Shown here: positions 33,789-36,185 of the stretch, in pieces | Layout: each line of letters opens with the position of its first letter | How positions within the stretch are numbered: the stretch's first letter is position 1 | DNA from: Verrucomicrobiota bacterium | GTDB taxonomy: Bacteria; Verrucomicrobiota; Verrucomicrobiia; Limisphaerales; VHCN01 | Length of the DNA stretch: 61,432 nt | Assembly: GCA_016871675.1 (NCBI GenBank) | Contig: VHCN01000016.1 | Span: 1 to 61,432, forward strand | Reading direction: 5' to 3' | The notes under the pieces: model-generated | Told to the model about the DNA's origin: nothing | Database searches by the model: none | The model's input: only the letters and a program-made list of their open reading frames with translations | Position numbers and translations under genes: made by a program

Positions 33789-34547
33789 TCATCCGTTCCA
33801 CGATCGCCCATCCCACTTGAGGATGCGTTCGAGGAGCTTGACCACGTCGTCCGTGAACACCCGGAAGATGGTTTCACCCTTGTCCGCCGTGGCAAAGCGC
33901 GGGTCGCCGATGTGGCCGGGCACGCTGCGGTCGCCCATGATCCAGCCGCGGTTCGCCGGCTCGAACGGGTTGCCAAACTCGACCGGTTCGACCTTCTTCA
34001 AGTCGCCGACGAGGTGCGGCGCGAGGCGGAGCATCATGCTCGTCTCCCACTCGCAGGCGTGGCCCATGCGCTGTTGCTTGATGTCGCGGTTGACCTCGTG
34101 CGGCTTGCCGCCGAGCAGCCAGTAGGTCGCGAAGAGCAGGAGCAGGTCGCGCCGCGCGCGATGTTTCTGGCGCAGCTCGAACACGGCCTGTTTGCCGGGC
34201 ACGTCGTTGCCGCCGTGGCCGTTGATGAAGACGATGCGCCGGAAGCCGTGCGTGATGAAGTTGTCCATCAGCCCGCCAAGCAAATCGAGATACGCGCGGG
34301 GCGCGGCGGAGAGCGTGCCGGGAAAGTCCATGTGATGCTCGGAGTTGCCGAGCCACTGGAGTGGCGCGAAAAGCACGCAGTCGCCGAGGCGCTCGCTCGC
34401 GCGGCGGATGATTTCGCCGCAGAGGAGGCTGTCGGTGAAGACGGGCATGTGGCGTCCATGCTGTTCGAGCGCGGCGACGGGGAAGACGACGGGCGTGTCC
34501 TTGCTGAGGGCCTGGACATCGGGCCACTTGAGGTCGGCGAGTTGCAT
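33789..34547 (-). CDS. Creatininase-family amidohydrolase
   Basis: A 252-residue protein of the creatininase family (creatinine amidohydrolase, also formamide hydrolases of riboflavin/F420 or mycofactocin pathways). Metal-ligand motifs are in order: ALEQHGRHMPVFTD (Glu, His, Asp), FINGHGGND (His) and ACEWETSMM (Glu). These place it as a zinc-dependent amide hydrolase of the cytoplasm. No riboflavin genes are adjacent, so the substrate cannot be assigned. It lies 53 nt upstream of the MFS gene on the same strand; together they may take up and open a small cyclic amide or sugar derivative. Confidence 0.85.
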   Translation of the reverse strand: MQLADLKWPDVQALSKDTPVVFPVAALEQHGRHMPVFTDSLLCGEIIRRASERLGDCVLFAPLQWLGNSEHHMDFPGTLSAAPRAYLDLLGGLMDNFITHGFRRIVFINGHGGNDVPGKQAVFELRQKHRARRDLLLLFATYWLLGGKPHEVNRDIKQQRMGHACEWETSMMLRLAPHLVGDLKKVEPVEFGNPFEPANRGWIMGDRSVPGHIGDPRFATADKGETIFRVFTDDVVKLLERILKWDGRSWNG

Positions 34548-34604
34548 GATGATTGAGGCGAAGGCTAGCGATCACACCGGCGATGACAAGCAGCGAGGCG
34601 CGTG

Positions 34605-34695
34605 GGGCGCATCTCAGTTCATTGCAACCCTCTCCCCTCGTCGGACGAGGGGGGGGAGGAACGGGGTGAGGGGCGCCATAAACTGAGATGCGCCC
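34605..34695. repeat. MITE-like palindromic element
   Basis: A 91-bp element bounded by perfect 15-bp inverted repeats (GGGCGCATCTCAGTT at 34605-34619 and its complement at 34681-34695), with similarity reaching further inward. The centre contains CTCCCCTCGTC next to GACGAGG and a G-run, a nested hairpin. No ORF and no clear target-site duplication. It resembles non-autonomous mobile or REP-type elements. Confidence 0.7.
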
Positions 34696-34860
34696 GGTTT
34701 CTTGGTGCCGTGAAAAAACCCGTTACACGAGGTTTACCCCTCCCTATTTTCGCAACGAATTCGAGCGCAGTAAGAAGCGTAAACACTCATCGGCCCGCAC
34801 CTACGGCGAAAGGCCAGCGAATGCGGGCGATGATTTTTTTTCGCTTTGAAGGGCGGCAGA

Positions 34861-34877
34861 ATTGAAGCGCTTTCAAT
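34861..34877. promoter_or_regulatory. Inverted repeat before tRNA-Thr
   Basis: ATTGAA-GCGCT-TTCAAT, ending one base before the tRNA 5' end. It could be a leader hairpin affecting RNase P processing, or a protein site. Six-bp arms only. Confidence 0.35.
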
Positions 34878-34878
34878 C

Positions 34879-34954
<76 letters not shown>

Positions 34955-34994
34955 CCGCAAAATGTCAGCGACAAACTAACAACCACGACACGCA

Positions 34995-36185
34995 ATGGCA
35001 AAAGAAGCATTCCAACGAACGAAACCCCACGTCAACGTCGGCACCATCGGGCACGTTGACCACGGCAAGTCCACGCTCACGGCGGCGATCGTCGCCACGC
35101 AGGCCCGCAAGGGACTTGCCAGCCAGATTTCGTATGCCGAAATCACGAAAGGCGGCACCGTGCGCGACGAGACCAAGACGGTCACGATCGCCGCGTCGCA
35201 CGTCGAGTATCAGAGCACGGAACGCCACTACGCGCACGTCGATTGCCCCGGCCACGCCGACTACGTGAAGAACATGATCACCGGCGCGGCGCAGATGGAC
35301 GGCGCGATTCTCGTCGTGAGCGCCGCCGACGGCCCGATGCCGCAGACGCGCGAGCACATCCTCCTCGCGCGGCAGGTCGGCGTCCCGGCGATCGTGGTTT
35401 ACCTCAACAAGGTGGACCTCGTGGACGACAAGGAACTGCTTGACCTCGTCGAGATGGAAATCCGCGACTTGCTCAACAAGTATCAATTCCCCGGCGACAC
35501 CACGCCGATCATCCGCGGCAGCTCCGCGGCTGCGCTCGCGGGCACACCCGAGGGCGAGGAGTCGATCCAGAAGCTTCTCGCCGCGGTGGACAGCTTCATC
35601 CCGCTGCCGATGCGCGAGGTGGACAAGCCCTTCCTGATGTGCATGGAGGACGTGTTCAACATTGAAGGTCGGGGCACGGTCGTCACCGGCCGCGTCGAGC
35701 GTGGTCTCCTCAAGAAGATGGAGGAGGTCGAGATCGTCGGTCTGAAGGACACGCGCAAGACCGTGGCAACGGACATCGAAATGTTCCGCAAGCTGCTCGA
35801 CTCCGCGCAGGCGGGTGACAACGTCGGGGTGCTGCTGCGCGGCATCAAGAAGGAAGAAGTCGAACGCGGCATGGTGCTCGCCAAGCCCGGATCGATCAAG
35901 CCGCACACCAAGTTCAAGGCCGAGGTCTACGTGTTGACCAAGGACGAGGGCGGCCGTCACACGCCGTTCTTCAACAAGTATCGTCCGCAGTTCTATTTCC
36001 GCACGTCGGACGTGACGGGCAACGTGAGTCTGCCCGCGGGCGTGGAAATGGTGATGCCGGGCGACAACGTCTCGGTGGACATCGAGCTGATCGCGCCGAT
36101 CGCGATGGAGAAGGGCCAGCGGTTCGCGATTCGAGAGGGCGGCCGGACCATCGGCGCCGGACGCGTGAGCGAAGTCATCGCCTAG
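34995..36185 (+). CDS. tuf: Elongation factor Tu
   Basis: A 396-residue EF-Tu, the GTPase that delivers aminoacyl-tRNA to the ribosome. GTP motifs: GHVDHGKST (residues about 19-27), DCPGHADY (about 81-88) and NKVDLVDD (about 136-143). Domains 2 and 3 are complete, ending GRVSEVIA. Length is normal. There is no Shine-Dalgarno sequence ahead of the ATG. It sits between tRNA-Thr and tRNA-Trp, the tufB-type location; no second tuf follows fusA in this window. Confidence 0.98.

Follow-up and report, generated by a model that had tools for sequence, protein, structure and literature searches.

A 91-bp element upstream of tRNA-Thr and tuf in a Verrucomicrobiota genome is probably an ISKra4-family MITE placed before their promoter

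The element and its setting

The window, the whole 61,432-nucleotide stretch of DNA analysed here, carries a 91-bp palindrome at 34605-34695 flanked by divergent genes: a creatininase-family gene on the minus strand (33789..34547; Pfam PF02633, 1.2e-60) on one side, and tRNA-Thr (GGT; 34879..34954, +) followed by tuf, which encodes EF-Tu (34995..36185, +), on the other. The palindrome is bounded by exact 15-bp terminal inverted repeats (TIRs), GGGCGCATCTCAGTT, at 34605-34619 on the plus strand and 34681-34695 on the minus strand. The left TIR can be followed imperfectly beyond its 15 perfect positions (34605..34626, +; GGGCGCATCTCAGTTCATTGCA, with GGGCGCATCTCAGTTTCTTGCA as the family form), and the right TIR spans 34674..34695 (-), perfect over 34681-34695. 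Between them, the predicted fold places an inner hairpin at about 34628..34659 (+), which belongs to a palindrome scattered through the host genome, and an GGGGTGAGGGG arm of that palindrome lies at 34663..34673 (+), its usual left partner CCCCTCACCC being absent at the window copy.

The region 34590-34710 had an MFE of -68.4 kcal/mol (z -4.7), and none of 200 shuffles was equally stable; the perfect repeats and the enclosed hairpin described in the first-pass annotation were thus both recovered. One perfect 15-bp inverted repeat with a span of 200 bp or less was present in the window, and at least one occurred in 2 of 60 Markov-simulated windows, so that the arms by themselves are mildly unusual, their rarity against simulation being slight. 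The 91-bp feature is nevertheless beyond chance, because many other genomes harbour a transposon family that has GGGCGCATCTCAGTT as its terminal repeat. At 91 bp, the element lies within the size range of MITEs (under about 400 bp) and is too short for a transposase gene. It had been annotated as free of ORFs; there is indeed no room for a transposase, but two mechanically listed ORFs of at least 80 aa (34345-34686 and 34602-34865) cross it, neither with any marks of a gene.

The annotation had also proposed that the element might act as a transcription barrier. A structured terminator or barrier retained for that function between divergent genes would suit the location and the very stable fold, and a weak terminator-like site was detected nearby at 34719-34731 (-), at chance level (one found versus a mean of 0.6 in shuffles). 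However, this was the sole terminator-like site in 34400-35000 and lies outside the element, on which no GC stem with a T-run was found, and no Rfam family except tRNA reached the gathering score at the locus. Searching for tuf gave matches in 53 of 58 genomes, from which 30 loci were returned, our own included; tRNA-Thr precedes tuf at all 30, and a TIR pair was present at one, that of the window. Since the element lies upstream of the putative promoter (see below), the tRNA-Thr/tuf transcript need not cross it. From the missing terminator-like site, the Rfam result, and the single tuf locus with a TIR pair, we rejected a terminator or barrier function, which we regard as very improbable. The annotation had named a single-copy hairpin conserved across species as the pattern favouring a terminator; instead, other copies of the element exist, and the hairpin-bearing TIR pair is confined to one of the 30 tuf loci. 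The original reading of 34605-34695 is thus supported as to the MITE but not as to the barrier.

Elements with the same ends in Verrucomicrobiota

The word GGGCGCATCTCAGTTT (one mismatch or fewer) was found in 28 of 58 genomes, our own included and the others from the same order, with 135 matches in one of them (G036); the reversed TIR word, used as a control, gave two matches across all 58 genomes. Converging TIR pairs in the relatives spanned 71-302 bp, plus one of 2645 bp. A scan of genome contigs with GGGCGCATCTCAGTTYNTTGCA returned at least 115 stretches, and among the 80 titles listed, Verrucomicrobia or its subgroups are named in all but those of two assemblies (one titled Akkermansia muciniphila). 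These stretches yielded 73 TIR pairs, and 44 of 115 loci had no pair. The TIR-bounded elements comprise MITEs of 71-384 bp and insertion sequences of about 1.47 kb, most of the pairs found being gene-less MITEs in Verrucomicrobiota.

Target duplications of 9 bp (8/9 or better) accompanied 17 of 31 pairs in a first set, compared with 0 of 930 swapped-flank controls; this set consisted of chosen pairs and left out the duplicates L085, L087, L099, and L100, the contig-end L114, and unpaired loci. In a set of 71 assessable pairs, which has some elements in common with the first, 41 had duplications at this level and 30 fell below it. At the window copy, the flanks agreed at 4/9 positions, the chance level, and shifting the ends was also unconvincing. 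Absence of the duplication at one old copy is compatible with descent from an ISKra4-family element.

Three elements of 1473-1474 bp (L224, L240, and L260) have the same ends, apart from a single change at one end of L240, and contain one long ORF each. The L260 element (L260:588-2061; 1474 bp, TIR GGGCGCATCTCAGTTTCTTGCA) is flanked by a 9/9 duplication and encodes a 473-aa transposase that scored 233.5 bits against NCBIfam NF033572 (ISKra4 transposase; cut-off 205), a test that covers the ORF of L260, that of L224 having been translated only. All 15 terminal bases of the window TIR are identical to both ends of L260 and L224. Two further elements, L112 and L113, have the related ends GGGCGCATTTCA and GGGCGCAGATCA and transposases that also exceed the NF033572 cut-off. 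The ISKra4 family is a Mutator superfamily transposase group, and the three transposases tested matched ISKra4 far better than ISLre2. A 2645-bp element (L086:217-2861, on G013:C35) with family TIRs and a 9/9 duplication carries an ISKra4-like transposase gene below the cut-off (169.7 bits) that adjoins a DruA-family gene (PF14236, 1.6e-33). DruA is a name known from Druantia defence; PADLOC returned nothing for the two L086 proteins.

Among the 58 genomes of the family search, 28 had an ISKra4 match and 17 a DruA match, and the window's own genome (G000, a draft in 149 contigs) had no NF033572 or DruA match at E 1e-5. The annotated expectation of a transposase elsewhere with the same terminal repeats was therefore borne out in other genomes, by ISKra4-family enzymes, and not in the host. 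Because the genome yielded no ISKra4 transposase and no target duplication accompanies the element, the window copy is probably a relic, and it would now be immobile.

The own genome (3.61 Mb in draft, 96.87% complete) nonetheless holds further copies, as the annotation's suggested search for them anticipated: the same outer end is clear at C69, C14, and C104 and diverged at C34 and C52. Together with the matching transposases in other genomes and the TIRs and target duplications found across the family, these copies uphold the annotation of the element as MITE-like. Relative to the 168-bp copy at C69:4340-4507, the window element lacks a single 80-bp block and is identical at 77 of 88 ungapped positions, which suggests, at the sequence level, that it arose by internal deletion from a longer own-genome copy. 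Pairwise alignment puts the presumed junction at 34626..34628 (+), though the two edges of the gap share a repeated ACC, which leaves the exact base ambiguous. The left half of this sister copy gave matches with E < 0.001 only at C69 itself and at C34.

The inner palindrome recurs widely in the own genome. In this draft (e.g. at C3:88028, C28:38619, and C94:6789), it takes the form CACCCCTCACCC-GCCCTTCGGGC-ACCCTCTCCCCTCGTC..GACGAGGGGAGAGGG-GGGGTGAGGGGTG, mostly without TIRs in the copies listed. The core could be the real unit, a dispersed host palindrome of the REP/BIME or RAYT "TIR repeat" kind, with an outer likeness to ISKra4 TIRs that arose by chance. The 28 places listed besides the window copy, only three of which (L017, L018, and L019) show the outer end, would agree with this, and the palindrome arm GGGGTGAG conforms to GGGGWSAS, the motif given in PMC3733652 for the TIRs of RAYT-like genes. 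Against it, autonomous ISKra4 elements end in exactly the outer TIR seen here, and the same outer end recurs on the own-genome copies C69, C14, and C104, so that we consider a host palindrome with chance ends unlikely. A palindrome driven by RAYT was rejected, as the Y1 (IS200/RAYT-type) transposase family PF01797 had 0 matches in the own genome. The dispersed palindrome in the element's interior resembles the REP/BIME and RAYT "TIRtron" repeats as described in that source, but the element differs from them in its ISKra4-type outer ends and in a genome where no Y1 transposase was found. The size of 70-300 bp, the TIRs of 15-30 bp, and the non-coding, hairpin-forming character given there for the bacterial MITEs Nezha, NEMIS, and ERIC are shared by the elements here, a likeness of description.

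In G036, a GGCAGGCATCCTTGCCTGCC-type palindrome gave 220 matches, which frequently form inverted pairs separated by about 106 bp and occur within ISKra4 TIRs as well as elsewhere. A TIR (three mismatches or fewer) lay within 260 bp at 14 of 30 fetched loci, some of which represent two matches in one element. The interiors of family elements are often host repeats, whichever of the two came first. A palindromic interior is no family property, however, and was rejected as such because only 21 of 65 MITE interiors folded with z < -3 (20 simulated sequences each).

Spacing between family elements and promoters

We analysed 183 outward flanks, including those of 84 elements with both flanks. Excluded were pairs from the 73-pair scan measuring 400-1380 bp or more than 1520 bp, flanks shorter than 90 bases, and duplicate flanks. 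A TTG started at offset 27 beyond the element end in 42 of the 183 flanks, compared with 2.17 expected, and matches of 5/6 or better to TTGACA occurred at this offset in 19 flanks, compared with 0.45 expected. A/T content peaked at offsets 18-21 and 50-51, and the -10 score behind the offset-27 TTGs was above that of 170 other TTGs (P 5e-12). In a leave-one-out analysis of the 84 elements, the better flank exceeded the 99th background percentile in 65% of cases (choosing the better of two random flanks would give about 2%) and the other flank in 2.4%. Among these elements, a TTG exactly at 27 was present on one side in 34, on both in 3, and on neither in 47 (37/84 on some side); allowing offsets 26-28, the numbers were 45, 5, and 34 (50/84 on some side). 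The 42 flanks came from 17 labelled sources, plus six flanks whose loci had no title shown; at least two of the labels, CAMAUZ and G036, probably stand for a single assembly. Insertion sequence copies followed the same spacing at 27 (L086, L112, L122, L240, and L260) or 28 (L113), and it was absent from L111 and L224 (one flank each) and from L284. The family thus prefers a fixed distance of 27 bp from sigma-70 promoters, an unexpected property that suggests promoter targeting at the family level.

Promoter-chosen insertion sites are unusual among transposons, and promoter insertion specificity is called unique in the available text of Guerillot et al. 2014 (PMC3942029). According to that text, the insertion sites of some ISKra4 elements lie 13-17 bp upstream of sigma-A promoters. 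The family described here resembles this published ISKra4 group (p-MULT 4) in its NF033572 transposase, insertion upstream of promoters, nearly perfect inverted repeats (18-39 bp in the published group), promoters on either side, and direct repeats of 8-9 bp. It differs in the distance from the inverted repeat end to the -35 hexamer (27 bp versus 13-17 bp), in consisting mostly of gene-less MITEs, and in its host phylum, as Verrucomicrobiota is not in the list for p-MULT 4 in the same text. The TnGBS/ISLre2 elements (p-MULT 3) described there likewise belong to the Mutator superfamily and insert at a fixed distance upstream of promoters, but in an oriented manner and at about 16 bp. In the literature searched, with subscription papers and ISfinder outside the search, we found neither a 27-bp spacing nor these MITEs described.

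A spacing this sharp in several genomes would serve as a ruler for how the transposase senses the promoter or RNA polymerase; it can be compared with that of the 16-bp class and may help to locate promoters in uncultured Verrucomicrobiota. On balance, we lean towards a clade of ISKra4-type transposons and MITEs in Verrucomicrobiota whose members are guided to 27 bp upstream of the -35 hexamer, roughly one helical turn beyond the distance of the known ISKra4/TnGBS elements, sparing the UP-element region, perhaps through docking of the transposase on promoter-bound RNA polymerase. The transposase may be guided by the polymerase or by the promoter DNA, and MITE sites would then mark promoters in uncultured genomes, the window copy marking that of tRNA-Thr/tuf. 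If so, the spacing would explain how the element came to lie beside this promoter without apparently breaking it.

The putative tRNA-Thr/tuf promoter beside the window copy

Within the 260 bp preceding tRNA-Thr, the highest-scoring sigma-70 match was GTTACA-17-TATTTT (34722-34750), 157 bp upstream of the tRNA gene. It consists of a putative -35 hexamer, GTTACA (34722..34727, +), 26 bp from the element end, and a putative -10 hexamer, TATTTT (34745..34750, +), with a spacer of 17. Its score of 9.5 was reached by 6 of 40 shuffled versions of this region and is not significant alone, so that the match rests on its position and not on its hexamers; a simple promoter scan returned nothing at its threshold. 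At offset 27 the right flank of the window copy lacks a TTG, but the matrix built from family flanks ranks it within the top 0.7% of positions when both strands of the window are scored, and a matrix start 1 bp earlier is the best place on the intergenic plus strand. An A-tract at 34713..34718 (+), at offsets 17-22 from the element end, coincides with the family A/T peak at 18-21 and may occupy the place of a proximal UP element. UP elements lie at about -40 to -60.

In the 260 bp before tRNA-Thr, 29 of 29 relatives had a promoter score of at least 10; this level was reached by 262 of 1160 shuffles and, within the tuf gene itself, by 4 of 29 stretches. The top listed match in these 29 combined a TTGAC hexamer with a -10 starting in TA, 130-207 bp before tRNA-Thr (two with ties), a place comparable with that of the putative -35 in the window; when ties were broken otherwise, such a pair was best in 27 of 29 relatives and in 23 of 1160 shuffles. 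Based on the flank score, the position of the window match, and the conserved promoter place in relatives, the element most likely lies just upstream of the tRNA-Thr/tuf promoter, leaving 26-27 bp intact, enough for a UP element, and the degenerate hexamers at 34722-34750 would be this promoter. The putative window -35, GTTACA, is without the TTG of the relatives' TTGAC, through real decay or an error of the draft assembly.

The left flank of the window copy also scored high (top 1.4% of window positions), and TTGTCA at 34584..34589 (-), 15 bp from the left end, is a weak candidate for a -35 hexamer directed towards the creatininase gene. No creatininase gene was detected in the tuf loci of the 29 relatives (tblastn 1e-5, loci extending at most about 1.5 kb to either side); the left neighbour is therefore probably lineage-specific, and the left junction may be rearranged. 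A variant that overlaps with our preferred explanation would have the left junction of the ISKra4-family MITE formed by recombination or an adjacent deletion, with the promoter spacing inherited on the right side only. The probably lineage-specific neighbour, the missing target duplication, and the right-hand agreement with the family spacing are all consistent with it; yet 30 of 71 family pairs also fall below an 8/9 duplication, so loss of the duplication is common and no special event is necessary. We regard a secondary left junction as possible but rather doubtful.

Taken with the family evidence, these observations make it quite probable that the 91-bp feature is an ISKra4-family MITE of Verrucomicrobiota that was placed upstream of the tRNA-Thr/tuf promoter by a transposase acting in trans. 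The element would be a non-autonomous member of this Mutator-superfamily insertion-sequence group in the phylum, and its GGGCGCATCTCAGTT ends would have been recognised by a transposase that is absent today from the element's genome as far as searched. The window copy would have arrived through transposition, with no target duplication left, about 27 bp upstream of a sigma-70 -35 hexamer, here that of the tRNA-Thr/tuf promoter, so that the promoter and its upstream A-tract were left intact. About 80 bp may have been lost internally, before or after insertion, leaving the two TIRs around a partial host palindrome.

Flanks of the other own-genome copies were scored with the same matrix, one each for C14, C52, and C104 and two each for C34 and C69; the flank start was shifted one base outward for C69 and C104, where the final TIR base was assumed to have changed. 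The flanks of C52 and C104 scored low (-12.7 and -4.3), and the better or only flank reached 13.3 at C14, 12.2 at C34, and 7.9 at C69, where the 99.9th background percentile is 7.7.
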